Shown here piece after piece: positions 1 to 52,038 of a stretch of 63,260 nt of DNA. This stretch comes from an uncultured Opitutia bacterium. GTDB taxonomy: Bacteria; Verrucomicrobiota; Verrucomicrobiia; Opitutales; Puniceicoccaceae. A model generated the notes under the pieces. It was not told the DNA's origin. It did not search any database and saw only the letters and a program-made list of their open reading frames with translations. A program made the translations under genes and the position numbers. The stretch is taken from positions 1 to 63,260 of the forward strand of contig CAJXLM010000011.1 of assembly GCA_913056175.1 (NCBI GenBank), read 5' to 3'. The first letter of the stretch is position 1, and each line of letters begins with the position of its first letter.

Positions 1-1
1 C

Positions 2-950: not shown

Positions 951-1274
951 ATGCCCACTTCCCATCTCTTTGCACCCGTTCCCGGAGACCTCCCGGAGGA
1001 GTGGGTGGAGGTTCTGGAGGCCCGTGCCTCGGTCCGGATCGAGCGAATTGTCTCGCGCGGCCATTCCTCCCCGCCGGGTTTCTGGTACGATCAGGACGAG
1101 CACGAATGGGTCGCCCTTCTTCGAGGGGAGGCCGAGCTCGAGCTGCTCGACCCACCCGAGCGCATCCGCCTGCGGGCCGGCGATTTCCTGCAGATCCCGG
1201 CACACCGCCGGCACCGGATTCTCTGGACGAGTCGGGAGACAGACTGTGTCTGGTTGGCCGTCTTCTACCGTTGA
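951..1274 (+). CDS. Small cupin-domain protein
   Basis: This is a 107-residue single-domain protein with the two short cupin motifs. The first is around residues 49-63 (DEHEW.ALLRGEAEL) and the second around 76-90 (AGDFLQIPAHRRHR), joined by a short loop. Such mini-cupins usually bind one metal and a small ligand or act as sensors. The N-terminal motif has only one clear histidine, so metal binding is not certain. The ATG at 951 was chosen because homology-like sequence begins there and the upstream extension is proline-rich and structureless. The gene stands alone, facing the end of the M19 peptidase gene. Substrate unknown. Confidence 0.75.
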   Translation: MPTSHLFAPVPGDLPEEWVEVLEARASVRIERIVSRGHSSPPGFWYDQDEHEWVALLRGEAELELLDPPERIRLRAGDFLQIPAHRRHRILWTSRETDCVWLAVFYR

Positions 1275-1445
1275 GGCGCTCCCGGGCGGCCCGCCCCTAC
1301 CTCGTTCTTGAGGTGAAGCGTCCCGGTCGGCCCCCGTTCCGGCGACCCTCATGGAGGCGGGGAACGGCCGCACCCGCCGCGCCTCCCCTCCTCCAAGCTT
1401 ACTGCAAACCAGCTCTCCTTCCGTTCCAACCCGACGAACGAAGTC

Positions 1446-2441: not shown

Positions 2442-2510
2442 GCGACCGGAGGGGAGTGAGGAAAAGGGATGGCGCGCGCCGCCCGGCAGGGCCTTGTCCG
2501 GGGTCCCGCT

Positions 2511-3962
2511 TCAGGCGGGGTCGCCCGCCGCCGCGTAGACCGTTTTCACCGTGGTGTAGAACTCCGCCGCGTACCGGCCCTGTTCGCGCGGCCCGTAGGA
2601 GGAATCGCCCCGTCCGCCAAACGCTACATGGTAGTCGGTGCCGGCCGTGGGCAGGTTCACCATCACGCACCCGCTCCGGCTGTGCCGCCGGAAGTGGGTG
2701 GCCCGGGCGAGGCTGGTCGTCACTATGCCCGAGGTGAGCCCGTAGGGCGTGGCGTTCGCAGTGGCGAGGGCCTCCTCGTAGCTGCCCACGCGAAGGACCG
2801 CGGTGATCGGCGCAAACATTTCCTCCTGGTTGATCCGCATGCCCATGTCCGTCCCCGCGAAGACGGCCGGGCTGAGGAAATGACCCTCCGTGGCGCACGG
2901 CACACGCTCTCCCCCGCAGAGCAGCTCGGCCCCCTCCGAGCGACCCAGCTCGAGGTAGCGAAGATCCTCCGCGAGCTGGTCGGCGCTCACCACCGGTCCC
3001 ACCTCCGTGCCCTCGGCGAGGGCCGGGCCGACCTTCATCGCCCGGGCCCCGGCGACGAGCCGCTCGACAAAGTCGTCGTGAACCTTCTCGTGGACAATCA
3101 GGCGCGAGGAGGCCGTGCACTTTTGTCCGGTCCCGCTGAAGGCCCCGGCGAGGGCCGCCTTGACCGCCACGTCGAGGTCGGCGTCGTCCATCACCACGAG
3201 CGGGTTCTTCGAACCCATCTCCAGCTGCACCTTCGTCAGGTTCGCCACCGCCGCCGCCGCGATCCGCTTGCCCACCGGCACCGACCCCGTGAAGGAGATG
3301 GCGTCAATGTCCGGGCTCTCCACGAGGCGCTGGCCGACTTCGCTCCCGGGCCCCATGACGAGGTTGAAGGTACCGGCGGGCAGGTCCTGCCGGGAGAGAA
3401 TCTCGGTGAGGGCCACGGCGAGCGCCGGGGTGAGGTTGGCGGGCTTCCAGACGACCGCGTTCCCGTAGGCCAGGGCCGGCGCGATCTTCCAGCTGGCCGT
3501 GGCGACCGGGAAATTCCAGGGCGAGACGACCGCGACCACCCCGACGGGCTCCCGCCGCATGTCGATCTCGATGCCGGGGCGCACGCTGTCCGCGTTCTCC
3601 CCGAGCTGCCGCAGACACTCCGCCGCGTAGTAGGTAAAGAACTGGCCGGCCCGGTAGACCTCCCCCTTTCCCTCCGCGAAAGGCTTGCCCTCCTCGCGGC
3701 TGAGGAGCGTGCCCAGCTCCACCGCGCGGTCCATCAACTCCCGACCGACCGACTCCAGCACCGCCTGGCGCTGTTCCAGTCCCCGGGCCGCCCACTCGGG
3801 CTGGGCCGCCCGGGCCGCCCCGATCGCGCGGTCGAGCTGGCCGGCGTCGGCCTGCGCGTACCATCCGATGACATCCGATCCATCGGAGGGGTTCCGGTTC
3901 TCGATACTCGTCGCGCCGGCCGTCCATTCGCCAGCAATCCAGTTGGAAAAAGATTCGCTCAT
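2511..3962 (-). CDS. NAD(P)+-dependent aldehyde dehydrogenase
   Basis: At 483 residues this has the full ALDH length. The oxyanion Asn150 lies in SPWNFP, the general base Glu248 in LEMGSKNP, and the nucleophile Cys282 in GQKCTASS. The SFTGS cofactor loop is at about 223-227. Overall it resembles the 2,5-dioxovalerate (alpha-ketoglutaric semialdehyde) type of ALDH, but substrate class cannot be fixed from sequence. The start gives MSESFSNWIAGEW, a normal ALDH N-terminus. It is the first gene of a likely two-gene unit with the M19 protein. About 100 bp covering its first roughly 30 codons and 5' flank is repeated with changes near 62.7-62.8 kb. Confidence 0.93.
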   Translation of the reverse strand: MSESFSNWIAGEWTAGATSIENRNPSDGSDVIGWYAQADAGQLDRAIGAARAAQPEWAARGLEQRQAVLESVGRELMDRAVELGTLLSREEGKPFAEGKGEVYRAGQFFTYYAAECLRQLGENADSVRPGIEIDMRREPVGVVAVVSPWNFPVATASWKIAPALAYGNAVVWKPANLTPALAVALTEILSRQDLPAGTFNLVMGPGSEVGQRLVESPDIDAISFTGSVPVGKRIAAAAVANLTKVQLEMGSKNPLVVMDDADLDVAVKAALAGAFSGTGQKCTASSRLIVHEKVHDDFVERLVAGARAMKVGPALAEGTEVGPVVSADQLAEDLRYLELGRSEGAELLCGGERVPCATEGHFLSPAVFAGTDMGMRINQEEMFAPITAVLRVGSYEEALATANATPYGLTSGIVTTSLARATHFRRHSRSGCVMVNLPTAGTDYHVAFGGRGDSSYGPREQGRYAAEFYTTVKTVYAAAGDPA

Positions 3963-4206
3963 AAGGGAGTTCGGAAGGGCTACAGGAATCAGCCGGGGGG
4001 GCTACGGAGAACAACAACGTGCCCGAGATTCAGGAACCCGCCGCTCCACCGCAATCGGAATCCCAGCCCGCCCCTGGCGGAAGGATCGATCCCGTTGGCC
4101 GGTTTCTCCCCGACCCCGTCAAGTCCCCCTTCCTAGCGCGGGGGGCGGCCACGGCCGCCTCGGGCCGGCCGCCGGCACCCATCGACCCCCGCGACTCCCC
4201 CTACCG

Positions 4207-4599
4207 ATGCTCTCCCCACACTTGCCGTTCCCGACCCCCTCCGTTTTCGTGGACCCTGTGGACGCCGACGAACGCGACTATTTCCGCACGGTGATTGAGG
4301 AAAGGCTCGAGGAAAACCGGGCGGAGCTCGCGCGCCTCGCCGACAGCACGGCCCCCATCGAGCCGGATGTGGCCATCGGGCGGCTCTCCCGGCTGGACGC
4401 CATGCAGATGCAGCAGACCGCTCTTGCCCAGCAACGCTCCCTCCAGCAGGACATCCGCAACCTCGAGGCCGCCCTCGAGCGCCTCGCCGCGGACCGCTTT
4501 GGCACCTGTCACCAGTGCCGCCAAGCCATTGCCTTCACCCGCCTGCAGGCCCAGCCCGCCGCCCGGATCTGCGGACACTGCGCTGAACGGATTCGCTGA
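4207..4599 (+). CDS. TraR/DksA-type C4 zinc-finger protein
   Basis: The 130-residue protein has a helical coiled-coil-like N-terminal half (about 20-97) followed by a C-terminal zinc finger with Cys101-x2-Cys104 and Cys122-x2-Cys125. This is the DksA/TraR arrangement, a family that binds the secondary channel of RNA polymerase. The finger contains FGTCHQC and ARICGHC. The acidic coiled-coil tip of true DksA is not clear, so a regulator of unknown effect is the safer call. The start at 4207 is the most upstream ATG; GTG codons at 4249 and 4258 would begin nearer the helix. It diverges from the aldehyde dehydrogenase gene and precedes the S41 protease by 64 bp. Confidence 0.8.
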   Translation: MLSPHLPFPTPSVFVDPVDADERDYFRTVIEERLEENRAELARLADSTAPIEPDVAIGRLSRLDAMQMQQTALAQQRSLQQDIRNLEAALERLAADRFGTCHQCRQAIAFTRLQAQPAARICGHCAERIR

Positions 4600-4663
4600 C
4601 CGCCGGAACCGGGGACCGCTTGCAATGATCCCGACCCTCCGTTGATTCCCTTGTATCCGAACC

Positions 4664-5992
4664 GTGCGCCCCCAGAGATTCCTCCTGATCCTCGTCCTCG
4701 TCTTCCTGGTCGTCCAGGGAGCCGCCCTCCTCGTGCGGGCCCCCCACCTCGACGGACTCTTCTCGCCGCAGTTCTGGACCAACCTCGGCCGCATCGGTCA
4801 GGTCATGCTGATCACCGAGGAGCGGCACGCCTCCGGGCAGACCAGTTTCCGCACCCTCGGCGACGAGGCCCTCCGCGGCATGACCGAGCGCCTCGACCAG
4901 TACTCCTCCTACATGTCGGGGCCTGAGTTCGAGCGCTATTCCCAGCCCACCCGCCAAAGCTACGGCGGCATCGGGGCGGAGGTCCGCGAGCGGGAGGGCA
5001 ATGTCCAGATCACCGGTCTCCATCCCGAGGGAGGCGCCCGGGCGGGCGGACTGGAGGAGGGGGACTGGATCGTCGCGGTGGACGACCAAAGCGTGGAAGG
5101 CGCCGGGCTCCCCGCCGTCGTCCAGGCCCTGCGCGGGGAGCCCGGCACCACCGTCGAGGTCGAAGTTCGGCGGGAGGGTGCGGACGAGCGAGTCCGGCGC
5201 ACGGTGGAGCGCCGCGAGCTGAACATCCGGTCCATCCGCGGGGCCCGTCTCCTCGGGGACGATATCGGCTACCTCCGGCTGAACGCGTTCGGGGTGAAGA
5301 CCGCCCGCGAGCTGGCAGTGGCCCTGGACGAGTTGCGTTCGCAGGGTGCCCGCGCCTGGATTCTCGACCTGCGCGACAACCCGGGCGGTCTCCTCGTCTC
5401 GGCCCGCCAGGTGCTCGATCTCTTCCTGCCCCGCCGCGAGGAATTGCTCACCGTGCGCGGCCGGGACCGCGAGCTCATCGAGCGCTACTTCACCCGGAGC
5501 CGCCCGGCGGTGCCGGAGGACGAGCCGATCGTGGTCCTCCAGAACCGCTTCAGTGCGTCTGCCTCCGAGATTGTTGCCGGGGTCCTGCAAGCCAAGGACC
5601 GTGCCCTCGTGGTCGGCGAGTCCTCTCATGGGAAGGGTTCCGTGCAGAGCGTCTATCCCTTCGGCAAGGGAGAAGGTCTTTCCCTGACCACCGCCCACTA
5701 CGAACTGCCCGGCGGCCAGCGGATCGACGGTGAGGGGGTGACTCCCGACCACACGGTCGATCTCTCCGCCGAGGAAGTGCAGAAGCTCGCTCTGCACGGA
5801 GCCCATGCAGGGAGTTTCTCGGAGCGTTCCTTCGAGGAAAATTTCGGCTACGCCCCACCCGAGGACCGCCCGTTGGAGCTGGCCATCGCCCTCCTCGAGG
5901 ACGAGCAAGCGCCCGCGGCAGCCGAGGGGAAACAAGGAGGGACCGCACCCGCGGCACCCCGGCCGTCCCTCCCCGTCCCCGATCCCTCGTGA
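4664..5992 (+). CDS. S41 carboxy-terminal processing protease (CtpA-like)
   Basis: This 442-residue protein starts with an N-terminal membrane segment (about 6-25), which would place it in the periplasm. A PDZ domain follows at about 100-190 (GGIGAEV.., PEGGARAGGLEEGDWIVAVD), then the S41 catalytic domain. The catalytic Ser301 is in SASASEI and the Lys324 in SHGKGSVQ. LRDNPGG at about 236-242 is the usual S41 core motif. These proteases trim C-termini of envelope proteins. The tail after 425 is rich in Ala, Pro and Gly. The start codon is GTG. Its stop overlaps the GTG start of tsaD (GTGA), so the two are translationally coupled. Confidence 0.93.
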   Translation: MRPQRFLLILVLVFLVVQGAALLVRAPHLDGLFSPQFWTNLGRIGQVMLITEERHASGQTSFRTLGDEALRGMTERLDQYSSYMSGPEFERYSQPTRQSYGGIGAEVREREGNVQITGLHPEGGARAGGLEEGDWIVAVDDQSVEGAGLPAVVQALRGEPGTTVEVEVRREGADERVRRTVERRELNIRSIRGARLLGDDIGYLRLNAFGVKTARELAVALDELRSQGARAWILDLRDNPGGLLVSARQVLDLFLPRREELLTVRGRDRELIERYFTRSRPAVPEDEPIVVLQNRFSASASEIVAGVLQAKDRALVVGESSHGKGSVQSVYPFGKGEGLSLTTAHYELPGGQRIDGEGVTPDHTVDLSAEEVQKLALHGAHAGSFSERSFEENFGYAPPEDRPLELAIALLEDEQAPAAAEGKQGGTAPAAPRPSLPVPDPS

Positions 5993-7077
5993 TCCTCGGC
6001 GTGGAGAGCTCCTGCGACGAGTCCGCCCTGGCGGTCTTCGTCCCGGGAGAAGGACTCCGGCTCTCCCTCGTGCACAGCCAGCTCGACCTGCACCGGGAGT
6101 ACGGGGGCGTCGTCCCCGACCTCGCCGCCCGCGAGCACCTCGCCCGCTTCCCCGTCCTCCTCGAGCGCCTCCTTGCGGAGGTGGACCCGGCCGCCCTCCG
6201 CACGGTCGCGGTCACCTACGGACCCGGCCTCGCCGGCTGCCTTGCCACGGGACTGGCCGTGGCCCAGGGCTGGGCGCTCGCCCGGGGGATTCCGGTCGTC
6301 GGGATCAACCACCTCCGCGCGCACGCCTGGTCCCCCTTCGCGGAGGCCTATGCGGAGAATCCGGCCGAGTGGGAGGAGCGCTCCGCCGCCCTCCTTCCCC
6401 ACCTCGGCCTGCTCGCCAGCGGCGGTAACACCCTCCTCTTCCGCATCGGGGAGGACCGCGCCCTCACCCTCCTCGCCGACACCCGCGACGACGCCGCCGG
6501 GGAGGCCCTCGACAAGGGGGCGAAGCTCCTCGGGCTCCCCTACCCGGGCGGACCCCAGCTGGAAGAGCTCGCCACCTCGGGCGATCCCTCCGCCCACCGT
6601 TTCCCCCGCGCCCTCCCGGAGCCGGAGGTCCGCGCCTTCAGCTTCAGCGGCCTGAAGACCAGCCTGCGCTACCGCCTCGAACGACGAACCTCCCCCCCCG
6701 ACGCCGGCGAGCGGGCCGACCTCGCCGCCTCTTACCAGCAGGCAGTAGTCGATGCCCTCCTCACCAAGGCCACCCAGTGCCTCGACGCGGATCCCTCCCT
6801 GCGCAGCCTCGGGCTCTCCGGCGGGGTTGCGAACAACGGCACCCTCCGCCAGCGGTGGCGGGCCCTCGGAGCGGACCGCGGTCGGCCGGTCCTCCTGGCT
6901 CCCCGCCCGTGGACCGGGGACAACGCCGCCATGATCGCCTTCGCTGCCGCCGTCGACCCGGCCGGCGCCCTGCCGGGCGAGGGACTCGGGTTCGCCCCCA
7001 GCCTCGAGCTCGCCCCCGGAACCCCAGCGAGCGGCCCTCGGGGAACCCGACTTGAGGCTATGCCGCCCGCTCGGTGA
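5989..7077 (+). CDS. tsaD: tRNA N6-adenosine threonylcarbamoyltransferase TsaD
   Basis: TsaD transfers the threonylcarbamoyl group to A37 of ANN-decoding tRNAs. The 362-residue protein begins MILGVESSCDES, with YGGVVPDLAAREH at about 38-50 and the metal pair His108/His112 in NHLRAHA (usually HLEGH). LLASGGNT, a GEALDKGAKLLGLPYPGG segment and LSGGVANN further on complete the ASKHA fold signature. It is slightly longer than the usual ~340 residues because of a C-terminal tail. The GTG start overlaps the preceding stop. The 3' end overlaps the convergent HAD gene by 20 bp. Confidence 0.95.
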   Translation: MILGVESSCDESALAVFVPGEGLRLSLVHSQLDLHREYGGVVPDLAAREHLARFPVLLERLLAEVDPAALRTVAVTYGPGLAGCLATGLAVAQGWALARGIPVVGINHLRAHAWSPFAEAYAENPAEWEERSAALLPHLGLLASGGNTLLFRIGEDRALTLLADTRDDAAGEALDKGAKLLGLPYPGGPQLEELATSGDPSAHRFPRALPEPEVRAFSFSGLKTSLRYRLERRTSPPDAGERADLAASYQQAVVDALLTKATQCLDADPSLRSLGLSGGVANNGTLRQRWRALGADRGRPVLLAPRPWTGDNAAMIAFAAAVDPAGALPGEGLGFAPSLELAPGTPASGPRGTRLEAMPPAR

Positions 7078-7846
7078 GGAAGAACTCCCGCGGAATCTCC
7101 GCGAGGCTCTCGCAGATCAGGTCGGGCCGGAAGGCGAAGAGGTCGGCAGCGGAACGGGTGGTGTGTCCCGAGAGCACGAGCACCGTTCGGTAGCCCATCT
7201 GCACGCCGCCGAGAATATCCGTGTACATGGTGTCGCCCACCATGATTGTCTCGTCCGTCCGGAGCCCCAGCTGGGTCCGGGCCGCCCGCATCATCACGGG
7301 GCTCGGCTTGCCCACCGAGAACGCCCCCCGCTGGGTGGCCCGCTCGATCATGGAGACAATCGCCCCGCAGCCCGGGCGGATCCCAGCCTCGGTCGGACAG
7401 GTGGTGTCCATGTTCGTGGCGATGAGCCGCGCCCCCTTGTCCACCAGCCGGGTCCCCTTCTCCACCATTTCAAAGGTCAGGGTCCGGCCCTCCCCCACGA
7501 CGACGTAGTCCACCTCGTCGTCCGCGATCGTGAAGCCCTCTCCATGCAGGGCGTTCACGAGTCCACTCTCGCCGATCACGTAAGCCGTGCCCCCGGGCTG
7601 CTGGTGCGCGAGGAAGCGGGCCGTGGCCATCGCGCAGGTGAAGACCTCCTCTTCGCGGGCGGGGATGCCGAGCTTGGCCAGCTTGTGCACGACATCCCGC
7701 TGGGTCCGCTGCGAGTTGTTGGTGAGGAACAAATACGGGATGCTCCGCTCCCGCAGCTCCCTCAAAAAGCCCTCGGCCCCGGGGATGACCTCATTGCCCC
7801 GGTAGAGAACCCCGTCCATGTCCAGAAGGAATCCGACTCTCTCCAT
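7058..7846 (-). CDS. HAD-superfamily sugar/nucleotide phosphatase, NagD type
   Basis: The start at 7846 gives 262 residues beginning MERVGFLLDMDGVLYRG, where Asp9 and Asp11 are the HAD nucleophile and acid/base. FLTNNS is motif II, the Lys lies in VGKPSPVMM, and MVGDTMYTDILGG is motif IV. The large C2-type cap between motifs II and III is that of the NagD/4-nitrophenylphosphatase group, which hydrolyses nucleoside and sugar phosphates. The longer frame upstream of 7846 lacks family similarity. It ends inside the last codons of the convergent tsaD, so the two transcripts overlap by 20 bp. Confidence 0.92.
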   Translation of the reverse strand: MERVGFLLDMDGVLYRGNEVIPGAEGFLRELRERSIPYLFLTNNSQRTQRDVVHKLAKLGIPAREEEVFTCAMATARFLAHQQPGGTAYVIGESGLVNALHGEGFTIADDEVDYVVVGEGRTLTFEMVEKGTRLVDKGARLIATNMDTTCPTEAGIRPGCGAIVSMIERATQRGAFSVGKPSPVMMRAARTQLGLRTDETIMVGDTMYTDILGGVQMGYRTVLVLSGHTTRSAADLFAFRPDLICESLAEIPREFFLTERAA

Positions 7847-7889
7847 GCCCGTGGAGAAAGCGTAAAGAATGCCAGTTTGCCCCCCCTCC

Positions 7890-8756
7890 TCAGTCCCCCC
7901 TTCCGGCCCGCTCCGCCATCTCTCCGCGAAGCCAGGCATAGCCCTCGTCGAAGGCCGGGTCTTCCGGCAGGTCGTCGTGGTTGCGCTCCTCCACCACGAG
8001 AAGCCGCTTGTCGGGGTCGGGGATTTCCGCGAAGAGCCGCTCCGCCATCTTCACCGGCGTGATCGGGTCCTCCTCGCCGACCACGAGGAGGACCGGAGCC
8101 TCCCACTCCGAGGCCCGCTCGCGGTTGTCCGCCCGCCCGATGTCCTCGCTGATGTCAAACCCGAGAAGGGGTTGCAGGTACCAGGGGAGGATCGTCTTCG
8201 ACCAGTCTTCCGCGCTGGTCAGGGGACTCTCCAGCACGATCCCGCCCACCGGTTCCTCCGCCGCCACCGCGGCCGCCGGGAAGCTCCCGAGGGAGTGCCC
8301 GTGCACGATGAGCTCCGCCGGTGCCACGCCCTGTTCCTCGCGAAGCCACTGATAGGCGGCCCGCGCATCGGCGAGGAGGTCCTCGACCGACGGCTCCCCC
8401 TCACTCCTCCCGTACCCGCGGTAGTCCCAGAGGAAGGCGTTCAGGTCGTTGCGCAGGAAAAAGTCCAGATACGGCCGGGACTGCACCAGGTAGAACATGT
8501 AGCCCCCCATGAAGAGCACGGTTTGCTCGGCACCTTCCTGCGTGAGGTACCAGCCATTCAGCCGGGTGCCGTCCCCCCCGGCAAAGAAGACCTCCTCCAG
8601 GTCCGCGCCGGGCTCCGCAAAAATCGCCGGGTAGACGGAGTCCTTCGGCTGGAAGACAGTTGCGTCGTTGAGGGGGATGCGCAGGCAGCCGGCCACCAGG
8701 AGGAGCCCGGCGAGGAATCCGCCAAGACAGAGAATGCGAAAAAGCGGTCCGGCCAT
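7890..8756 (-). CDS. Alpha/beta-hydrolase lipoprotein
   Basis: The ATG at 8756 has GGGGAAGGG just upstream and gives 288 residues. The protein opens with a lipoprotein signal peptide ending in LLLVAGC (Cys24), so it is probably anchored in the envelope. The hydrolase fold shows WDYRGYGRSEG, the nucleophile elbow GHSLG, a late VVGEEDPITP acid strand and a catalytic His in NHDDLP. It resembles the YfhR/BEM46-like group of serine hydrolases with unknown substrate. It lies 43 bp upstream of the NagD-like gene on the same strand and could be co-transcribed with it. Confidence 0.88.
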   Translation of the reverse strand: MAGPLFRILCLGGFLAGLLLVAGCLRIPLNDATVFQPKDSVYPAIFAEPGADLEEVFFAGGDGTRLNGWYLTQEGAEQTVLFMGGYMFYLVQSRPYLDFFLRNDLNAFLWDYRGYGRSEGEPSVEDLLADARAAYQWLREEQGVAPAELIVHGHSLGSFPAAAVAAEEPVGGIVLESPLTSAEDWSKTILPWYLQPLLGFDISEDIGRADNRERASEWEAPVLLVVGEEDPITPVKMAERLFAEIPDPDKRLLVVEERNHDDLPEDPAFDEGYAWLRGEMAERAGRGD

Positions 8757-8956
8757 CCCTTCCCCTACGAGCGGAGGGACACGGGTCAACGCAGTGGCCG
8801 GGAATTCGGGCTTGCCAGCCAATTCCGGGCAGGGATACTCCGGCACCCAGTCAAGTCCAGACCTACGGATGCCCGGCCCCGGTCGATCCCACCCCAGCAT
8901 GGGTTCGCCCTCGGGCCCTACCCCTCTCCCCCTTGCCCATTCCCATCCCGTCCGCG

Positions 8957-9733
8957 ATGAGCCAGTACCTCTACCTGTCCCTCAGTCCCGAAGCCCTCAT
9001 GTTCTCCATGCTGCCGCCGGATGAATTCGGGCGCTACCTTGCCATCGGGGACGACCAGACCACCCGCGCGCAGGCGATGTTCATGGAAATCGATCCGGAG
9101 GTGGAGGCGGCCGGCTTGTCCCTCGCCGAGGGCAAGGCGCGCTGCGTACCGCACGAGGACGGTTCCGCGCGCAAGTCGGTCTATGTGGGCATCTACCGCG
9201 TCCTTGAGCAGCTTCCGCCGGACTGCTTCCGGCGGCTCCACCTCGTCACCCAGGACGGGATCGTCCTCTCCCTCGATCCCACCGACCCGCCCACTCCCTC
9301 GGGCCAGAGCCGGCACCTTTACCAGGAGATCTGCCCGGTGACCGCCCGGGTCGCTTCCCTTCTCAGCCCGTCCGAATTCTCCGCCTACGTCACCGATCCC
9401 TCCAACCCGCTCTATCTTCCGCGGGTCTTTTTCTCCGACCTCAAACTGGGAAACCTCGCCGAGAATCCGGACGACCCCGACGCCGCCAACCTCCCCTACG
9501 ACGGCCTGCCCCACGTCCGCAGGGTGCTCGGCCAGATCCGGCCGGGCGGGAGCAAGCGCACCAAGATCGAGCGCCGCATGACCCGGCCGGAGCTCTTCTA
9601 CTACCTTGTGGATTCGGGATTCTACCTCGGCGATGCCACCACCCTGCGCTGCTACCGAATGCCACCTGAGGACCAGCTGATCGGCGAATACCGCCGCTGG
9701 TGGAACTCCGCCAACCGCGCCGAACGCTACTGA
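8957..9733 (+). CDS. Conserved-looking protein of unknown function with internal duplication
   Basis: No family recognised. From the ATG at 8957 the protein has 258 residues (starting at 8933 would add 8). It is soluble, without signal or membrane segments. Two halves resemble each other: LPPDEFGRYL..AQAMFMEIDP followed by a VYVGIYRVLEQL helix, and LSPSEFSAYV..PRVFFSDLK followed by a LPHVRRVLGQI helix. This suggests a duplicated unit of about 100 residues. It is 55 bp upstream of hppA on the same strand, so the two may share a transcript. Confidence 0.75.
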   Translation: MSQYLYLSLSPEALMFSMLPPDEFGRYLAIGDDQTTRAQAMFMEIDPEVEAAGLSLAEGKARCVPHEDGSARKSVYVGIYRVLEQLPPDCFRRLHLVTQDGIVLSLDPTDPPTPSGQSRHLYQEICPVTARVASLLSPSEFSAYVTDPSNPLYLPRVFFSDLKLGNLAENPDDPDAANLPYDGLPHVRRVLGQIRPGGSKRTKIERRMTRPELFYYLVDSGFYLGDATTLRCYRMPPEDQLIGEYRRWWNSANRAERY

Positions 9734-9788
9734 TTCGAGTCCCGACCCCGCCGCCCCCCTGATTTCCCGTACCCCGAACGAATCGATC

Positions 9789-11798
9789 ATGCAGATCCTC
9801 GCTGTCATCATTCCCCTGCTCGGTATCGCCGGCCTGATCTTCGCCGGCTCCATCTTCCGCCGGATCCTCCGACAGTCCGGCGGGGAGGATGAAGTCGCCT
9901 CCATCGCCGACCAGATCCACAAGGGCGCGATGGTCTTCATGCGGCGCGAGCTGCTCCTCATTGCCGCCTTCGCCGTCGTGGTGGGCGGTCTCCTCTTCTG
10001 GAAGGATCCCTACGAGTCCCTCGCCTTCTTCCTCGGTGCGATCGCCTCCTCCTTCGCGGGCTTTGTCGGGATGTACACGGCCACCAAGGCAAATGTCCGC
10101 ACGACCGTCGCCGCCCGCAACGAAGGACCGGCCAGCGCCCTGAAGACAGCTTTTTCCGGGGGCTCCATCATGGGTCTGACGGTGGCCTCCATGGGCCTGC
10201 TCGGCGTAGGCGGGCTCTTCGTCTTCTTTGGCGGCACGGAGAAGGACATCCACATCATCCACGGCTTCGCCATGGGGGGCTCCCTCGTCGCGATTTTCTT
10301 CCGCGTGGGCGGGGGCATCTTCACCAAGGCGGCTGATGTCGGTGCCGACCTCGTCGGCAAGGTCGAATCGGGCATCCCGGAGGACGATCCCCGCAACCCG
10401 GGCGTGATCGCCGACAATGTCGGGGACAATGTCGGGGACGTCGCCGGGATGGGTTCCGATCTCTTCGAGTCCTACTGCAACGCGATGATCGCCACCATGG
10501 CCATTGCCGCCACCATCGCCGTCGATGGCGATGCACTCGCCCTCCTCGGTGGCAACCGTCCGGCGCTCATGTTCCTTCCCCTGGCGCTCGCCGGGCTCGG
10601 CATCCTCTGCTCGGTCGCCGGCATCCGCCTGGTGGAACGCTCGGCCAACCTCGACCCCGCCAAGGCCCTCCGCGTCGGCACGATGGGGGCCGCGGCCCTC
10701 TTTATCATCCTCGCCGCCGCCGTGGTACCCCTCCTCGGGGTTTCCTTCGCCGTCTGGCTCTGCGTGCTCGCGGGCTCGGCCGGCGGGATTCTCATCGGAC
10801 TCTCCACGGAGTTCTACACGGGCGGCGGCCCGATGCGCGGGATCGCCAAATCCGGGGTCACCGGCGTGGCCACGGTGATGATCCGCGGAGTCGCCACGGG
10901 CCTCCAGTCCGTCGCCATTCCGCTGCTGGTCATCGGGGGCGTCATCCTCGCCGCCAGCTTCCTCGGAGGGCTGTACGGGGTGGGGATCGCCGCGGTCGGC
11001 ATGCTTGCGACCATCGGGGTCACCATGAGCATCGACGCCTACGGCCCCGTCGCCGACAACGCCGGCGGGATCGCCGAAATGTCCGGCATGGGCAAGGAGG
11101 TCCGCGAGATCACCGATTCCCTCGACGAGGTGGGCAACACCACCGCGGCGATCGGCAAGGGCTTCGCCATTGGGGCCGCCTCCCTCGCCGCCCTCGCCAT
11201 CATCGCGGCCTTCGTCAATGTGGTTCGGGTGAACAACGAGGGCTTTGTCCTCCTGCTCTCCGATCCCCAGGTGCTTACGGGAATCTTTCTCGGCGGCCTC
11301 TGCCCCTTCCTGGTGGCCTCCATCACCATGAACGCGGTCGGCAACGCCGCCCAGGAGATGATCGAAGAGATCCGCCGGCAGTTCCGGGAAATTCCGGGCC
11401 TGCTCGAGGGGGACGGCAAGCCGGACTCCAACCGCTGCATCGACATCGCCACCAACGCCGCCATCAAGCGGATGTTCCTCCCCGCCGCCATCGCCATCTT
11501 CGCCCCGGTCCTGATCGGCTTCCTCATCGGGCCGGAGGCTCTCGGCGGTGCCCTGATCGGGGCCCTCCTCGCCGGTGTCCTCCTCGCCCTCATGATGGCC
11601 AACAGCGGGGGCGCCTGGGACAACGCCAAGAAGTACGTCGAACAGGGCAACTACGGCGGCAAGAACTCCGAGGCTCACAAGGCCTGCGTGGTCGGGGACA
11701 CGGTGGGCGACCCGTTCAAGGATACCTCCGGACCCTCCATGAACATTCTCATCAATGTCATGGCCATCGTCTCCCTGGTCATCGCTCCCCTCCTCTAG
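9789..11798 (+). CDS. hppA: Membrane-bound ion-translocating pyrophosphatase
   Basis: HppA couples hydrolysis of pyrophosphate to export of H+ or Na+ across the inner membrane. The 669-residue protein has many hydrophobic segments and the full substrate motif [31 protein letters not shown] (roughly residues 180-220). The second acidic cluster [11 protein letters not shown] and the C-terminal [14 protein letters not shown] are also present. In [10 protein letters not shown] the residue after GNTT is Ala. In this family Ala there marks the K+-dependent class and Lys the K+-independent class, so K+ dependence is inferred. Whether it pumps Na+ or H+ is not decided by what I can see. Confidence 0.97.
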
Positions 11799-12621
11799 CC
11801 CCTCCACCACAGGAAAGAGCGTAGCCTTGCCCCGCTTGCGAAGCACTTCGAGCGGGCGCAGCCCTACCCCGTAGCCGTCGAAGGAAGGAGGCCGGCCCGA
11901 ACGCCGGCGACCGAACGCGACCCCCAGAACTGTCTTGTCGCCCCCATCACCCCGCACAGGCCCTCGCCCTCGCACAACCCTTCCCACCCCCGCATCCCAA
12001 CGACTTCACTGGCCTCCACCGACTCCCGTCGCGCCCCCTCCCGACCCCTACCCCCTCCCCGCCTCGCCGAGGGTCTCGTTCCCTCCACCACGACCCAAGG
12101 CACGCCTCCCACGCTCCCGCCGACTCCCCTGCCGACCGCAGGCCTTCCCTGCGTGCGAAGCACCCCCTGCGGGCGCAGCCCCTCCCCGCGGGCGCAGCCC
12201 CTCCCCGCGGGCGCAGCCCCTCCCCGCGGGCGCAGCACTCCGAGCAGGCGCAGCACTCCGAGCAGGCGCAGCACTCCGGGCAGGCGCAGCCCCACCCGGC
12301 ACCCCTCCACCCTTCGCGCACCTTCTCCCGACCTCCGCCCCCTCCCCGCCTCGCCAAGGGTGTCGTTCCCTCCACCACGACCCAAGACACGCCTCCCCTG
12401 CCGCCGAAGGCTCCCCTGCCGGCCGCAGGCCTTCCCTGCGTGCGAAGCCCCCCCTGCGTGCGCAGCCCCTCCCCGCGGCCGCAGGCCCCTCCCCGCGTGC
12501 GCAGCACTCCGAGCGGGCGCAGCCCCTCCCCGCGGGCGAAGCACCTCCCTGCGGCCGCAGGCCTCCCCTGCCCCCTCTCCACAGTTGAGTCCGCCGCCTC
12601 CTCCCCTTTCTCTGGGGGTGA
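11799..12621. repeat. Long GC-rich intergenic repeat region
   Basis: No gene is supported in these 820 bp; long frames exist only because stop codons are rare. Segments recur elsewhere. A GTAGCCG..GAAGGAGGCCGGCCCGA block (about 11870-11905) reappears near 15980-16020. The GTGTCGTTCCCTCCACCA block occurs twice here and again near 27290. The motif GGCCGCAGGC..TCCCCTGCG is scattered through 12060-12570 and at 15850-16110 and 27130-27380. The perfect palindrome CCTGCGGCCGCAGG lies near 12548-12561. Confidence 0.75.
12154..12300. repeat. Tandem 18-19 bp GC-rich units
   Basis: The unit GCAGCCCCTCCCCGCGGGC (19 bp) repeats in tandem and passes into an 18-bp variant GCAGCACTCCGAGCAGGC, also in tandem. 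The repeats lie within the intergenic region upstream of metG and give a six-residue periodic pattern in spurious reading frames. Confidence 0.75.
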
Positions 12622-47036: not shown

Positions 47037-47140
47037 ACCGCCAAGCTGGATGGGAACGCCCCCGCGCGCAACCACGCGAGCTGCCGGGCAAGCGTAGAGA
47101 TCTCCACGAACTCCGCCACGCGCGGAGCCCACCGTTGCAA

Positions 47141-47191
47141 GAATGGAGCCGGAAATCGGATTCGAACCGACGACCCACGCATTACGAATGC
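47141..47191. repeat. Left att copy: 51-bp duplicate of the tRNA-Thr 3' end
   Basis: These 51 bp are identical to 51960-52010 and correspond to the 3' part of tRNA-Thr, from the CCA end through the T-arm and variable loop to the 3' side of the anticodon stem and most of its loop. After 47191 the sequences diverge, so this is the outer border of the integrated element. The fragment cannot form a tRNA. Confidence 0.93.
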
Positions 47192-47257
47192 TACGCCAGA
47201 AAATGGCTTCCATTGATTTTCAATGACTTGCGAAGCACCCAAGAGCAGCAAAAGGCA

Positions 47258-47290
47258 CCAAGTCACGTTTTTAACGTGACAATACGTGAC
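47258..47290. promoter_or_regulatory. Left-end ACGTGAC repeats (putative arm-type integrase sites)
   Basis: CCAAGTCACGT (47258-47268) is followed by AACGTGAC (47273-47280) and ACGTGAC (47284-47290). The first and second form a hairpin-like inverted pair. The 11-bp CCAAGTCACGT is exactly the inverse of ACGTGACTTGG at 51896-51906 at the other end of the element. Arm-type sites of tyrosine recombinases have this kind of layout; binding is inferred. Confidence 0.6.
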
Positions 47291-47312
47291 CGGAGCGGTA
47301 GGAACTCCCCCC

Positions 47313-48503
47313 ATGAGGCCGGCCAGAATTCCAATCCGCAAGACCCCCTCGGGCCAATTCTCGTTCGACGTCCCGCCTCGCCTGTCGCCCACCGGCAAGC
47401 GCCAGCGCCGGACATTCTCGACCAAGCGCGAGGCCGAGCTCCGCCGCCGTCAGACCCTCGAGGCTTCCCGACTCTACGGGGAGACCAGCCGCCAGTTGAC
47501 CGCCGCCGAGGCCGAGGACGCCGGGAAGGCCCTCGAGCTCCTCGCAGGGGAGGCAACCCTCCTCGAGGCCGCCCAAGCCCTCGTGGCCAGCCGGGACCGT
47601 CGAGCGCGTTCGGTTCCGCTCTCCCAGCTCCGCAGCGCCTACCTCACTTCGCGGGAGGGGAGCGACTACTCGGACTACTACCGCCGCGACATCCGCCGCG
47701 CCTTCGCAGTCCTGCTCGAGCAACTTGGCGATCCGCTCGTCGCCGACATCACCCAGGGGCAGCTCAAGGAGGCCCTCCACCGGGCCACCGCCAACAAGCG
47801 CCTGCGCAACGACACTCTCCGCCGCCTCTCCCCCGCTTGGAAATTCGCGGTGGAGCATGGATGGGCCGACGCCAACGTGCCCGGGAGCGTGAGCCGCGAG
47901 CGAGTCACCATGCGCACCCCCCGCATCCTCACCTCCGCCGAGGCCGAGCGCCTCCTCGCAGCCTGCACCGACCACCGCGGCAACGAGACTCTGCCCGACA
48001 ACCTCCGCGTGGATTGCCGCGATGCTGTCGCCGCGTTCGCCCTCATGTTGTTCGCTGGCGTCCGCCCCGAGGAGGTTGCCCGCCTCGAGTGGAGGAGCCT
48101 CTCACTCGCCGACGGCACCGTCCGCATCCCGGCCGAGGCCAGCAAGGTACGCACCCCCCGCTCGTTTGAAGCGCCGCCCGTCCTCCTCGCTTGGCTCGAG
48201 ACCGTCCCGCGGCCGCGCCGGACCGGACCGGTTGTCCCCCGTGATTGGGAGCGGAAGAAGAAGGCCGTGCGGGCCGCGTTCGGATTCACCCGCCGCGACG
48301 CCGACGTGCTCCGCAAGACCTTCGCCTCCCATCACCTCGCCTGCTTCGGAGACGTCAACCTCACCCGCGCCATCATGGGCCACGAAACGCCCGACGTCCT
48401 CTTCCGGCACTACGCCGGCCACGTCGAGAAGGCCGACGCCCTCCGCTTCTTCCACCTCTTCCCGCCCGGCCATGAGCACCGCAAGCTCCGCGCCGCCAGT
48501 TGA
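47313..48503 (+). CDS. Tyrosine recombinase (integrase)
   Basis: The ATG at 47313 gives 396 residues; a GTG at 47286 overlapping the ACGTGAC repeat would add 9. An N-terminal arm-binding/core-binding part (to about 195) precedes the catalytic domain. ALMLFAGVRPEEVARLEW holds the box I Arg, DADVLRKTFASHH the box II Arg with Asp where a His is common, and IMGHETPDVLFRHYAG the late His and the nucleophile Tyr. It would integrate and excise the element at the tRNA-Thr att site. Composition is similar to the host, so transfer is not recent or is from a similar-GC genome. Confidence 0.93.
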   Translation: MRPARIPIRKTPSGQFSFDVPPRLSPTGKRQRRTFSTKREAELRRRQTLEASRLYGETSRQLTAAEAEDAGKALELLAGEATLLEAAQALVASRDRRARSVPLSQLRSAYLTSREGSDYSDYYRRDIRRAFAVLLEQLGDPLVADITQGQLKEALHRATANKRLRNDTLRRLSPAWKFAVEHGWADANVPGSVSRERVTMRTPRILTSAEAERLLAACTDHRGNETLPDNLRVDCRDAVAAFALMLFAGVRPEEVARLEWRSLSLADGTVRIPAEASKVRTPRSFEAPPVLLAWLETVPRPRRTGPVVPRDWERKKKAVRAAFGFTRRDADVLRKTFASHHLACFGDVNLTRAIMGHETPDVLFRHYAGHVEKADALRFFHLFPPGHEHRKLRAAS

Positions 48504-48526
48504 GAACCCACCACCCCCCGCCTGCC

Positions 48527-48772
48527 ATGACACGACACGTCGCCCGACTCCTCGACCGCTACCTCGCCGGCGGCCAGCGCCCCATGCTCCGTGCCCAGCG
48601 CGACGACGGCACCACCCTCGACGTTCGCGTCCGCGAGGAGGACGTGGAGAAAGCCGCCGCTCTTTGGGGAGGCAGCTACTTCTCGTTCACGTACCGCGGA
48701 GGCCGCGCCTTCTTCGTCCCCCGGCCGTACCGCCGGAGGACTGACCCGCAACCCCCACCGCTACGACCATGA
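48527..48772 (+). CDS. Small hypothetical protein of the element
   Basis: The ATG at 48527 gives 81 residues starting MTRHVARLLDRYLAGGQ. A mid part VRVREEDVEKAAALWGGSYFSFTYRGGRAFFVP suggests a small alpha/beta fold. No family recognised. It follows the integrase by 23 bp and overlaps the start of the next gene by a few bases, so it belongs to the same transcript. Confidence 0.55.
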   Translation: MTRHVARLLDRYLAGGQRPMLRAQRDDGTTLDVRVREEDVEKAAALWGGSYFSFTYRGGRAFFVPRPYRRRTDPQPPPLRP

Positions 48773-49035
48773 GCCACCCACCAGCCCACCCGCACAGCGA
48801 CCTCCCCGTGATGACCGAGGCCGAGGTTGACGACCCCAATTGCGTCCACCTCGACCTCCGCAACCTCTCGCCCCGCGCCCTGCGAGGCCTGCAATGGTAC
48901 GCCGAGCACACCGGCAACTCGCTCGCCGGAGCCACCATCCTCGTCCTGAACGAGAACGAGGCTCCCGACGAGCCGCCGTGGACCCGCGACGGGCCGGACC
49001 ACCAGCTCCGTTTCCCCGACCGCGACGACGGATGA
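48769..49035 (+). CDS. Small acidic hypothetical protein of the element
   Basis: These 88 residues read MSHPPAHPHSDLPVMTEAEVDDPN.. with an amphipathic central helix LSPRALRGLQWYAEHTGNSL. No known domain. The ATGA overlap with the previous gene and the ATGA overlap with the following one point to a coupled cassette. Function unknown. Confidence 0.55.
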   Translation: MSHPPAHPHSDLPVMTEAEVDDPNCVHLDLRNLSPRALRGLQWYAEHTGNSLAGATILVLNENEAPDEPPWTRDGPDHQLRFPDRDDG

Positions 49036-49544
49036 ACCTCCACGCCCCCGACCCCATGCCCGAGCCGACCCCACCCGAGCCGACCCGGCACAGCGAAGCC
49101 CAAGCGCTCGCCAAGCTCCGGACCATTCACCACAGCATCCTCGCCCTCGACGCCTTGGAGGCCGGAGCCCGCCGGGCCGAGGCAGGCGGAGAGACCTTCG
49201 AGGACGCCGACGAGATCCTCGAGCGCCTGCACGAGATCCCGCTCTCCGCGGAGTACCGCACCGATTGGTACGCCCTCGACGAGGAACCCGATGAGCTTTA
49301 CGAGCGCCTTGTGGAACCGACGGAGGCGAGACTCCTCCTCTGCGCCGGCGGGCCGGCCGTCCAACTCCATTGCCGCCTCCACGACGACGGATCCCGGGAG
49401 CCGACACTCCAGCACCGCGACTGGTTCGAAGCATGGGAAGACCTCACCGCCGCGGCCATCGTCGCCGCCAGCCTCGACCCCGTCGCCTGCCAGCGGAGCC
49501 TCATCCGGTTCACCCAGTTGATTAGCGTTTTCGCCAACGACTGA
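49032..49544 (+). CDS. Element-borne protein resembling plasmid/phage accessory proteins
   Basis: Starting at the ATG at 49032 (MNLHAPDPMPEP) gives 170 residues. The central segment AEYRTDWYALDEEPDELYE..ARLLLCAGGPAVQLHCRLHDDGSREPTLQHRDWFEAWEDL looks like a small protein type I recall from plasmids and integrative elements (pattern LLCTGGPAV.. followed by a Q-DWF motif). Its function is not known to me. It overlaps the preceding gene by 4 bp and ends 148 bp before the ribbon-helix-helix gene. Confidence 0.65.
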   Translation: MNLHAPDPMPEPTPPEPTRHSEAQALAKLRTIHHSILALDALEAGARRAEAGGETFEDADEILERLHEIPLSAEYRTDWYALDEEPDELYERLVEPTEARLLLCAGGPAVQLHCRLHDDGSREPTLQHRDWFEAWEDLTAAAIVAASLDPVACQRSLIRFTQLISVFAND

Positions 49545-49692
49545 CGGAGGCACCAGCCGCCAGAATTCGCCCGAGAGGCCGCCGCAACCGCCTCCCGAGG
49601 GTCAACACCCCTGTCGAGCGCTCCGCGGCGCTTCTCGGGCCACACAGCCGCTTGCAAGCCCGCCCCCCGGGGGCAAGCCTAAAGCGCCCCCC

Positions 49693-49896
49693 CTACAGGC
49701 CAGCGGAAGGCCCCCCGTCGTCGTAGTCCCGGAGCAGCTCCGCCACCGCCTCGTCGAGCGCGATCCCCGCCTCCACCGCCGCCTCGACCAGCTCCTCCCG
49801 CGTTCGGTCCGTCCCGGCCGCCAGCGCCTCGACGCGGAGGACCAGCGACAGGGGGAGCTCCACCGCCACCCGCTCCTCTTCTCCGGATCCGCTCAC
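49693..49896 (-). CDS. Ribbon-helix-helix-like small regulator
   Basis: From the GTG at 49896 (TTG at 49908 would add 4) it has 67 residues. RVAVELPLSLVLRVEALAAGTDRTREELVEAAVEAGI fits a beta-strand followed by two helices as in CopG/Arc-type proteins. The acidic C-terminus (LLRDYDDGG) is short. It is the only minus-strand gene in the element, facing the integrase operon end, and may control the divergent HTH-gene promoter (inference). Confidence 0.6.
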   Translation of the reverse strand: MSGSGEEERVAVELPLSLVLRVEALAAGTDRTREELVEAAVEAGIALDEAVAELLRDYDDGGPSAGL

Positions 49897-50114
49897 GCCT
49901 TCAGCCAATCGGCAGCACCGCGAGCCTGCAACCGCCTTCCACCCGACGCCCGACAGGCCGCCGCCACCCCGGCACCCCCCCCAGGGGGAGGGGAGGGGGA
50001 AAACCTACCGGACCCCGTACCCACCTACCGCGTCGTTACCGAAAAATTTCCGGTCGCGAAATCCATCCATTTCGCGCCGGCGGCCAACGCCCCCTCGCCG
50101 CTGGTGCGACCGCC

Positions 50115-50187
50115 TCCCGCAGATTGCAACAACTTTGTTCGCGAGATTCGTTGTTTTTCTTGACATCGATGCAGCAGGATACCCGCC
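50115..50187 (+). promoter_or_regulatory. AT-richer promoter/operator region before the HTH gene
   Basis: This is the most AT-rich stretch of the element. It has AACAA..TTGTTCG..TTCGTTGTT repeats in inverted and direct form, and TTGACA at 50160-50165. No good -10 box sits at the usual 17-bp spacing. AGGA 8 bp before the ATG at 50188 is the likely ribosome binding site. Confidence 0.4.
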
Positions 50188-50415
50188 ATGACAACTCGAC
50201 GCAATCCATCCGCCGCCTCCACACCCGTCGTTATCACCCGCCGCGAGGCCGCCGAGCGCTACAAGTTAAGCTTGCGGCAGGTCGATCATTTCCTCCGCGC
50301 CGACATTCTCCCGCAGCTCCGCATCGGCCGCAGCGTGCGAATCCCCGTCGAGCAGGCCGACGAAGCGATCATGAGCTTTGCCGTGGGCCGGGCCGCCGAC
50401 CAAAGCAAGCGATGA
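50188..50415 (+). CDS. Excisionase/AlpA-like helix-turn-helix protein
   Basis: The 75-residue protein has VVITRREAAERYKLSLRQVDHFLRADILPQLRIGRSVRIPVEQADEAI, the HTH_17/MerR-like winged helix used by excisionases and AlpA regulators. In a mobile element with a tyrosine recombinase it is the best candidate for the directionality factor. The start ATG has AGGA upstream. The stop overlaps the next start (ATGA). Confidence 0.8.
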   Translation: MTTRRNPSAASTPVVITRREAAERYKLSLRQVDHFLRADILPQLRIGRSVRIPVEQADEAIMSFAVGRAADQSKR

Positions 50416-50546
50416 GCCGCGACCGCCCCGCCAACCGGGCCGCGGCCAAAGGCCGTTTCTCCGGCAGCACCCTCCGCGTCTTTGAGCGCGTCGCTCGAGG
50501 CGATCCCAAGCCGTCCCGGCGGAAGGGAGGGAGCCGCCGTGCCTGA
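50412..50546 (+). CDS. Very short basic protein between the HTH and putative Rep genes
   Basis: The ATG at 50412 overlaps the previous stop (ATGA) and gives 44 residues, MSRDRPANRAAAKGRFSGS.., with about a quarter Arg/Lys. Its stop overlaps the GTG start of the next gene. The tight couplings on both sides suggest it is translated. It could be a nucleic-acid-binding peptide. Unknown. Confidence 0.45.
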   Translation: MSRDRPANRAAAKGRFSGSTLRVFERVARGDPKPSRRKGGSRRA

Positions 50547-51486
50547 TGAACCCAGCCTCCCGCAGCCCTCCCTCGCCGAGCCGGACGACGATGCGCTTGC
50601 AATCCTCGCCGAGATCCTGCCCGCCGACGATGACGAAAGGCACTACCGCGTCCCCTGCCCGACCCGGTTCCTCCGCCTCCCGCCCTTGGAATTCCTCCCG
50701 AAGGAGGACCAGCCGGTCTCGTGGCGCTTGCGATGGGCCGTCAACTACGCCGACCGGTACGGACAAGAAGTGGTCAATGGAGTAGAGCAAGGCCGACCCG
50801 ACTTCTTCGACGAAAGGCGCGAGGACCACCCTTGGGACGTCCTCGCCGGGCCGTTGAAGGTAGACGATCCGCTCGCCGAGGAACTCGCCGACCAGCTCGA
50901 ACTTATGCAGGAGGCAACCGACGGGACCGACGACGACGAGACCCTCCCCGACGACCTCGACACCGCGTGGCACCTCGCCATCTCCATCGGTCGCCGCCAC
51001 GTATGGTTTCCCCCCGATTGGCTCCCGGACCTCGTCAGGGGCACCCGCGACCAGCGCGACGAGGAGCTCGAAAAGCCCTTCGGCAAAGTCTCCCGCCACC
51101 ACCTCCGCACCCTCTCCGAGCGCAACCTCCGTGTGCTGGTCGCCCTCCGCAGCATCCTCCAAGGGTCGCAAGTCCAGACTGTCCCGCTCCGCCTGATTCG
51201 GGACCGCCTCGAAGGCACCTTGTCCGAGCGCCAAGTCCGCCGCGCCCGGGACCATTTCGTGATTCCCCGCCTCGAAGAGCTTTGTTTTCACGCCCACCTC
51301 GACCGCGCCTCCAACTTCCGAATGGCTCAGGCCGGGAGCGGGGAGCCGGGCAGCCGGGGAATCACCGCCGAGCGCTTCCTGCAGATCGTTGAGGAGCAAA
51401 TCCGCGAGGCACAGGCGAAGGCGAAGCGCGGCCGAGGACTGTTGATCCAATTCCCCAGCCAAAAGCGAGCGGGGGGCAGCGTTTAA
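50539..51486 (+). CDS. Unknown element protein, possible replication or regulatory protein
   Basis: The GTG at 50539 follows GGAGGGAG and gives 315 residues. The N-terminal half is acidic. From about 195 there is a helical part, FGKVSRHHLRTLSERNLRVLVALRSIL..VPLRLIRDRLEGTLSERQVRRARDHFVIPRLEEL, that may form a winged helix. A basic C-terminus KAKRGRGLL follows. No Walker, HUH or relaxase motifs are seen. Being the largest non-integrase gene and ending inside a G-tract repeat array, it could be an initiator binding those repeats; this is speculation. Confidence 0.6.
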   Translation: MPDEPSLPQPSLAEPDDDALAILAEILPADDDERHYRVPCPTRFLRLPPLEFLPKEDQPVSWRLRWAVNYADRYGQEVVNGVEQGRPDFFDERREDHPWDVLAGPLKVDDPLAEELADQLELMQEATDGTDDDETLPDDLDTAWHLAISIGRRHVWFPPDWLPDLVRGTRDQRDEELEKPFGKVSRHHLRTLSERNLRVLVALRSILQGSQVQTVPLRLIRDRLEGTLSERQVRRARDHFVIPRLEELCFHAHLDRASNFRMAQAGSGEPGSRGITAERFLQIVEEQIREAQAKAKRGRGLLIQFPSQKRAGGSV

Positions 51487-51559
51487 AGAGCTTGCCACGG
51501 GGGGCAGCGGGGGGGGGCAGCCATAGGGGGCAGCGGGGGGGGGCAGCGGGGGGGGCAGC
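51471..51559 (+). repeat. Six G-tract/CAGC repeats
   Basis: Runs of five to nine G are each followed by CAGC: 51471-51480, 51499-51508, 51509-51521, 51526-51534, 51535-51547 and 51548-51559. The first overlaps the final codons of the 315-residue gene. The strand has high G-quadruplex potential and is followed by AT-rich CTAAAAGGGTTATCTAAAAGAG. The pattern resembles iterons beside an AT-rich melting region. Confidence 0.85.
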
Positions 51560-51959
51560 CCTAAAAGGGTTATCTAAAAGAGTAATAGTAAAGAGGGACA
51601 AAGAGCACAACGCCGGCCGCGTTGTGGGAACAGCCTCGAGCTCGCTTCAGAGAACCAAGGCAGGCCGATGCCACCCACAGGCCGACGCCAGCGCCACCGT
51701 CCCCACCCCACCCCGCCACAGCGCCGGATCCTTCCCGCCGCCACCTCCCGGCCGCCAGCCCCCACCGGACGACCGCCAGCGCCACCTCCCGGCAACCCGC
51801 CCGAGCAGCGAAATTTTCGCACCCCGCCCGCACCCCACCGACCGCCACCCCGCAGCGCCCCTCGGCCGCCTTCCCGCGATCATAACGTGACTTTGACGTG
51901 ACTTGGCTTCCGCCTGACCCCTCCCCTCGCCGCTGGTTGTTTCGTAAGTCCCTGAGGGA
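51560..51959. other. Right end of the element, no gene recognised
   Basis: An AT-rich start (51560-51600) passes into GC-rich sequence without a supported gene. Near the border are AACGTGAC (51884-51891) and ACGTGACTTGG (51896-51906), matching the left-end repeats. Frames here on both strands are probably spurious. Confidence 0.5.
51884..51906. promoter_or_regulatory. Right-end ACGTGAC repeats (putative arm-type integrase sites)
   Basis: AACGTGAC and ACGTGACTTGG lie 12 bp apart centre to centre, 54-76 bp inside the right border. The second is the exact inverse of CCAAGTCACGT at the left end. Both ends therefore carry the same motif, as expected of recombinase or Xis arm sites. Confidence 0.6.
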
Positions 51960-52010
51960 GAATGGAGCCGGAAATCGGATTCGAACCGACGACCCACGCA
52001 TTACGAATGC
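51960..52010. repeat. Right att copy within tRNA-Thr
   Basis: Identical to 47141-47191. It spans the 3' part of the intact tRNA gene, so integration kept the tRNA whole on this side. Confidence 0.93.
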
Positions 52011-52038
52011 GTTGCTCTACCAGCTGAGCTATTCCGGC
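51963..52038 (-). tRNA. tRNA-Thr, anticodon CGU
   Basis: Read on the minus strand it folds as a complete cloverleaf of 76 bases with encoded CCA. The acceptor is GCCGGAA/TTCCGGC, the D-arm GCTC/GAGC, the anticodon stem ACGCA/TGCGT with loop TTCGTAA (anticodon CGT, reading ACG), and the T-arm GTCGG/CCGAT with TTCGAAT. It is the attachment site of the neighbouring element and lies between uvrA and, before insertion, the Lhr-like helicase gene. Confidence 0.97.

Follow-up and report, generated by a model that had tools for sequence, protein, structure and literature searches.

A compact 4.8-kb integrative element in the tRNA-Thr(CGT) gene of an uncultured Opitutia bacterium, with features suggestive of a minimal phage satellite

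The stretch analysed here (63,260 nucleotides of contig CAJXLM010000011.1, assembly GCA_913056175.1; hereafter the window) derives from an uncultured Opitutia bacterium of the family Puniceicoccaceae and contains, within a tRNA-Thr(CGT) gene, a compact site-specific integrative element of 4.8 kb with fixed borders, an assignment that is strongly supported. The element looks intact. As to its way of life, we consider it most likely, at a confidence of about one half, to be a minimal phage-satellite-like element, similar in its working to the phage-inducible chromosomal minimalist islands (PICMIs) of Vibrionaceae without being one of them.

The borders are marked by an exact direct repeat of 52 bp (identity 52/52), the two copies of which are 4,819 bp apart; a repeat of this length within 63 kb goes far beyond what chance would produce. 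A reading of the same DNA from sequence only (the sequence-only reading) had reported this attachment site (att) duplication in tRNA-Thr(CGU) as 51 bp long; repeat comparison, ARAGORN and Rfam confirmed the identical copies and the intact tRNA, and corrected the length. Both tRNA searches agreed on one intact tRNA-Thr with the anticodon CGT (Rfam cutoff, 29 bits). The repeat spans tRNA positions 29–76 together with 4 bp downstream, which is the bacterial attachment site (attB) typical of integrases that target tRNA genes at their 3' end. Direct repeats stand at both borders, one of them restoring the tRNA 3' end, and an intact tyrosine recombinase gene adjoins att, as in tRNA-targeted integrative elements. 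Of the six copies of the heptamer ACGTGAC in the 63 kb, five fall into two clusters (29 and 18 bp) immediately inside the ends of the element, a placement expected of arm-type integrase sites; the Poisson chance of this clustering is approximately 5e-11, with the motif chosen after the ends were seen. Outside the element, a gene for an lhr-type helicase lies on one side and uvrA on the other. The earlier statement that both borders are fixed is thus upheld by the exact att repeats, the intact integrase, the arm-type repeats inside the ends and, as described below, a sibling element in the same tRNA.

Eight compact open reading frames (ORFs) occupy most of the element. They are arranged in two series, int-A81-B88-C170 and HTH-D44-E315 (HTH, helix-turn-helix; letter-number names give the protein length in residues), in which neighbouring genes overlap or lie close together; a divergent ribbon-helix-helix (RHH) gene separates the two series. 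By codon-position G+C content (GC) all eight are of the coding type (third-position GC, 0.78–0.89), D44 being the least clear, and the GC of the element genes (0.65–0.74) is similar to that of the flanks. In agreement with the sequence-only reading, an integrase, an RHH protein and an excisionase-like HTH protein are present, the last with matches below curated cutoffs, and besides these there are only small genes without known family; no replication, conjugation or packaging gene was recognisable by family search of the eight ORFs. E315 and the four small ORFs had no match to Pfam, NCBIfam or PADLOC families, and against PHROG they gave nothing except one chance-level match of D44. No match to C170 was obtained from the viral contigs or from the other 131 genomes of the order that were searched. 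Promoter and terminator scans revealed no excess over shuffles, and approximately 470 bp between E315 and attR are without a convincing gene. An interpretation of the element as a defence island was dropped, there being no PADLOC match.

The element is related to others that bear phage structural genes. In an alignment of five integrases the catalytic residues R251, K278, D331xxR334, H357 and Y367 are conserved, and in all five the histidine of the usual HxxR box is replaced by aspartate. The integrase tree places the window protein in one group with those of genomes G003 and G024 and of both units of viral contig L090, with a support of 91/89, which is moderate and below the starred level of the tree program; a quick tree gave the same group an SH-aLRT of 93.

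A counterpart is found in G003, a genome of the same family, where a 13.3-kb element (locus L059 = G003:C75, 4407–17800) resides in the same tRNA-Thr(CGT) with a 47-bp att. The two elements share 33% identity in the integrase, 44% in the HTH protein and 69% in D44, and common to both are the ATGA overlap of HTH and D44 and a GTG start overlapping the D44 stop. Downstream of D44, the G003 element encodes a 106-aa ORF, a primase/helicase (phrog_239), a tape measure protein (phrog_9483, 3e-25; PF10145) and a tail-like protein of 317 aa. No capsid or terminase match was obtained among the G003 proteins scanned, and no homologues of E315, A81, B88 or C170 were found in this element. Near both of its ends lies AGTGCCTAT, the same arm layout with another motif. 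Viral contigs scanned with the G003 primase and tape measure yielded no relative. The G003 element is a candidate for a tail-gene-bearing satellite or a prophage remnant.

Two further genomes of the family (G001 and G002) possess one tRNA-Thr(CGT) each; the 48-nt att is not duplicated in them, and lhr and uvrA do not flank the gene there. G024 holds a seemingly truncated version with int and HTH, for which one att copy was found. A 6.25-kb element of G110 in tRNA-Thr(TGT) has the 25-mer TTTGGGTGTCACTTGGGCGTCACGC near both ends. Compact elements with related integrases and primase- or helicase-like genes were seen at loci L044 (4294–10615; 6.25 kb, tRNA-Thr(TGT), 50-bp att) and L041 (6892–12339; 5.4 kb, tRNA-Arg(CCT), 21-bp att).

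Among IMG/VR viral contigs, the window integrase alone retrieved no relative, whereas a scan with the integrase alignment gave L090 (3300023236_000782) as the best match by far, the better-matching of its integrases being 37% identical to that of the window. This contig (1–16096) consists of two head-to-tail units of about 8 kb, each encoding an integrase, an ORF of about 180 aa, an HTH protein, a helicase/primase, a small terminase subunit (TerS; phrog_141) and a major capsid protein (MCP; phrog_617, PF05065). The cores of L090 are tRNA fragments (Leu and Arg), each beside an int, and are flanked on both sides by AGGCA- or AAGGGCAG-type repeats. This layout, with int by a tRNA fragment and arm repeats on both sides, resembles that of an excised element or a concatemer. 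A second contig, L150 (3300022866_000615; 1–12492), was found by scanning with the L090 HTH protein and holds the first L090 unit and part of another. Between core and int, the 17-nt TTGATTTTCAATGACTT is shared without change by the window, L090 unit 1 and L150; the G003 version differs at two positions. HTH homologues adjoin related integrases in G003, L090, L150, G024 and on contig 54 of the host genome itself. Outside G003, D44 gave only weak matches, of which the best (G421) has no integrase or HTH context, and no D44 relatives were found in scans of the viral contigs or genome contigs.

E315 is an orphan. Searches of viral contigs, genome contigs (84,980 species), plasmids, phages, and 387 genomes of the phylum and 372 of the order detected no relative, and the pairing of the integrase with this 315-residue protein, which the sequence-only reading had proposed to look for elsewhere, did not recur, as no other copy of the E315 gene was found. 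Weak matches in G238, G577 and G688 were attributed to chance, all three running through stop codons and the last falling within a protein very unlike E315 in its general properties. AlphaFold models computed without an alignment were unusable (pLDDT 36 for E315 and 44 for C170). We infer a role in replication for E315 from its slot after HTH, in which G003 and the viral units carry replication genes. A HUH-type replication initiator, suggested by an HAH motif, was rejected as no tyrosine follows the motif. At the 3' end of the gene the G-rich GGGGGGCAGC occurs five times, a number reached in none of 100 shuffles, and these repeats are a candidate origin. The features of the element are compiled in Table 1.

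Table 1. Features of the integrative element, in window coordinates
Feature	Position	Strand	Evidence
attL, 52-bp copy of tRNA-Thr 3' half; distal border, upstream of lhr	47140..47191	.	52/52 identical to 51959-52010
Conserved att-side motif TTGATTTTCAATGACTT, 21 bp past core	47213..47229	+	Identical 17-mer in L090 unit 1 and L150; 2 mismatches in G003
Left putative arm-type sites, three ACGTGAC, one inverted	47262..47290	.	Motif count
Tyrosine integrase, 396 aa	47313..48503	+	PF00589 9.6e-9; phrog_1 2.2e-29
A81, 81-aa ORF without assigned family	48527..48772	+	No family match; none in 51 relatives' genomes
B88, 88-aa ORF without assigned family, ATGA overlap with A81	48769..49035	+	No family match; none in 51 relatives' genomes
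C170, 170-aa ORF without assigned family, ATGA overlap with B88	49032..49544	+	No family match
RHH (CopG-type) regulator, 71 aa, divergent from HTH operon	49693..49908	-	PF01402 E 1.9e-4, above gathering cutoff
Excisionase-like HTH protein, 75 aa	50188..50415	+	TIGR01764 4.7e-4, HTH_17 2.4e-3, both below curated cutoffs
D44, 44-aa ORF, ATGA overlap with HTH gene, core KGRFSGSTLR-FERV	50412..50546	+	69%-identical G003 homologue in same place
E315, orphan 315-aa protein, GTG start overlapping D44 stop	50539..51486	+	No relative in collections searched
G-rich repeats, GGGGGGCAGC x5, at and past E315 stop; possible iterons/origin	51471..51559	+	5 exact copies
Right putative arm-type sites, two ACGTGAC	51885..51902	.	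Motif count
attR, 52-bp core, nearly all within intact tRNA gene	51959..52010	.	Repeat and tRNA calls
Intact tRNA-Thr(CGT), integration site	51963..52038	-	ARAGORN; Rfam RF00005 70 bits

Taken as a minimal satellite, the element would work as follows. The integrase would recombine the 3' half of tRNA-Thr(CGT) with an attP composed of the right arms, the tRNA core, TTGATTTTCAATGACTT and the left arms, and the tRNA would thereby be restored. The HTH protein may act as excisionase, as activator of its own operon HTH-D44-E315, or as both, with the divergent RHH protein as a presumed repressor opposing this activation. E315, standing in place of the primase/helicase of the siblings, would probably start or recruit replication of the excised circle, for which the G-rich repeats could perhaps serve as the site. 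Packaging and spread of the circle would fall to a helper phage, the element itself having no packaging genes.

That the element is of a 'minimal satellite-type', as the sequence-only reading had ventured, gains indirect backing from the int/HTH/att group that it forms with tail-bearing or TerS- and capsid-bearing elements. The satellite reading also draws on two other integrase-bearing elements of the host genome, which carry primase/helicase-type genes. One of these, on contig 12 (L042, 3504–10193), measures 6.6 kb and is inserted in tRNA-Ser(CGA) with a 63-bp att, an int and a gene for an 819-aa BT4734/DUF5906 protein; another, at the end of contig 54 (L043, 11–4725), combines int, an excisionase-like HTH gene and a gene for a 769-aa DUF5906 protein. 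Elsewhere in L043 (5572–6159 and 11250–13139) two Nif11-type precursor-like peptides (PF07862) and an array with seven copies of a repeat of about 210 nt were noted, and near 12993 there may be a third related repeat; these features are distributed over both sides of a gene for a 1562-aa autotransporter.

Several points weigh against a satellite. The window element has no phage hallmark gene, structural or packaging, of its own, and it is by inference that we speak of a satellite at all; the integrase grouping is moderate; the case for E315 in replication is one of gene position, for a protein with no detectable relative and an unusable model; and a prophage remnant is a possible reading of the G003 element. 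In addition, the host genome, a draft of 84 contigs, gave no match to the PF03237 terminase or the PF05065 HK97 capsid model and thus has no helper prophage by these two models.

A broader proposal, which we put forward tentatively and with clearly less confidence, is that of a new family of tRNA-integrated satellites in which a common int/att/HTH chassis is combined with an exchangeable downstream module: capsid and TerS in the viral units, the tape measure of a tail in G003, and, for the window element, E315 as a new type of replication protein without any packaging gene. If this is true, the window element would be among the smallest satellites known.

Somewhat doubtful is an integrative element without a satellite lifestyle, which would excise and spread by transformation, generalised transduction or vesicles, with E315 and the small ORFs as host-interaction or defence cargo. 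Such a view would fit the lack of any recognised structural, packaging, relaxase or replication gene, the orphan state of A81, B88, C170 and E315, as cargo often is, and the lack of a helper prophage by the two models. However, an effector in the slot of E315 would break the pattern of G003, where HTH-D44 is followed by the 106-aa ORF and the primase/helicase, and of the viral units, where HTH precedes the helicase/primase; for defence cargo, the negative PADLOC result also counts against it.

Rather unlikely, in our judgement, is an element that has been reduced from a larger satellite or G003-like island and is no longer mobile, in which the 470-bp stretch past E315 would mark lost genes. 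The same-site sibling, with 13.3 kb and more genes, and the seemingly truncated G024 version would agree with such a history, but the eight ORFs are all intact and coding-like, the integrase residues are kept, and the att copies are identical, with arm sites at both ends, whereas the non-tRNA copy of a long-dead element would have drifted. An assembly artefact, with the repeat and the orphan block arising from a mis-join such as att-like repeats can provoke in a draft genome, is very improbable given the GC of the element genes, similar to the flanks, and a consistent att/arms/int anatomy that recurs in independent genomes and viral contigs.

Should the minimal-satellite reading be right, minimal phage satellites would extend to a new bacterial group, for which an open-access literature search gave no described case and, for the phylum, passing mentions only. 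One integration and regulation chassis would then be found combined with capsid genes, tail genes or no structural genes, and E315 would become a candidate member of a so far unrecognised class of replication proteins.

Phage-inducible chromosomal islands (PICIs), including the capsid-forming ones, are integrated islands in which int and small regulators accompany a replication module; the window element differs in that no packaging, capsid or primase gene was recognised in its eight ORFs. It contains no terminase, portal, capsid or tail gene that would make it a prophage, and neither a relaxase or conjugation family (Pfam, NCBIfam) nor a similar plasmid record that would point to an integrative and conjugative or mobilisable element. 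With the G003 element it shares the tRNA-Thr(CGT) site, the related int, HTH and D44 and the gene junctions, but not the primase/helicase, tape measure and tail-like protein, and the counterpart lacks detectable homologues of its four orphans. The L090/L150 units resemble it in the related int, the HTH homologue, the tRNA-fragment cores and, in unit 1, the 17-nt att motif, and differ in having their own helicase/primase, TerS and MCP, in their tandem arrangement and in cores from tRNA-Leu and tRNA-Arg. The window element belongs, with moderate tree support, to a group whose integrases come from tape-measure- or MCP-bearing elements and which has the HTH homologue and the 17-nt motif in common. 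By definition, a PICMI carries int, alpA and prim and is inserted at fis; single small genes often separate alpA from prim. PICMIs are helper-dependent satellites without capsid genes, and they demonstrate that an integrase, a regulator and a replication gene can be enough for a satellite (PMC10803314). The window element is likewise very small, with overlapping genes and no capsid or packaging genes, and its int is followed by an HTH-type regulator, a small gene and a putative replication gene, HTH-D44-E315 corresponding to alpA-up1-prim. It differs in that no primase was recognised and no AlpA match obtained (the HTH protein is HTH_17/excise-like, below cutoff), in its insertion in tRNA-Thr(CGT) instead of fis, and in its occurrence in another bacterial group. 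The definitions of PICMI, PICI and capsid-forming PICI, prophage, and conjugative or mobilisable element that it fails weaken the statement that it is one of these, not the statement that it works like one.

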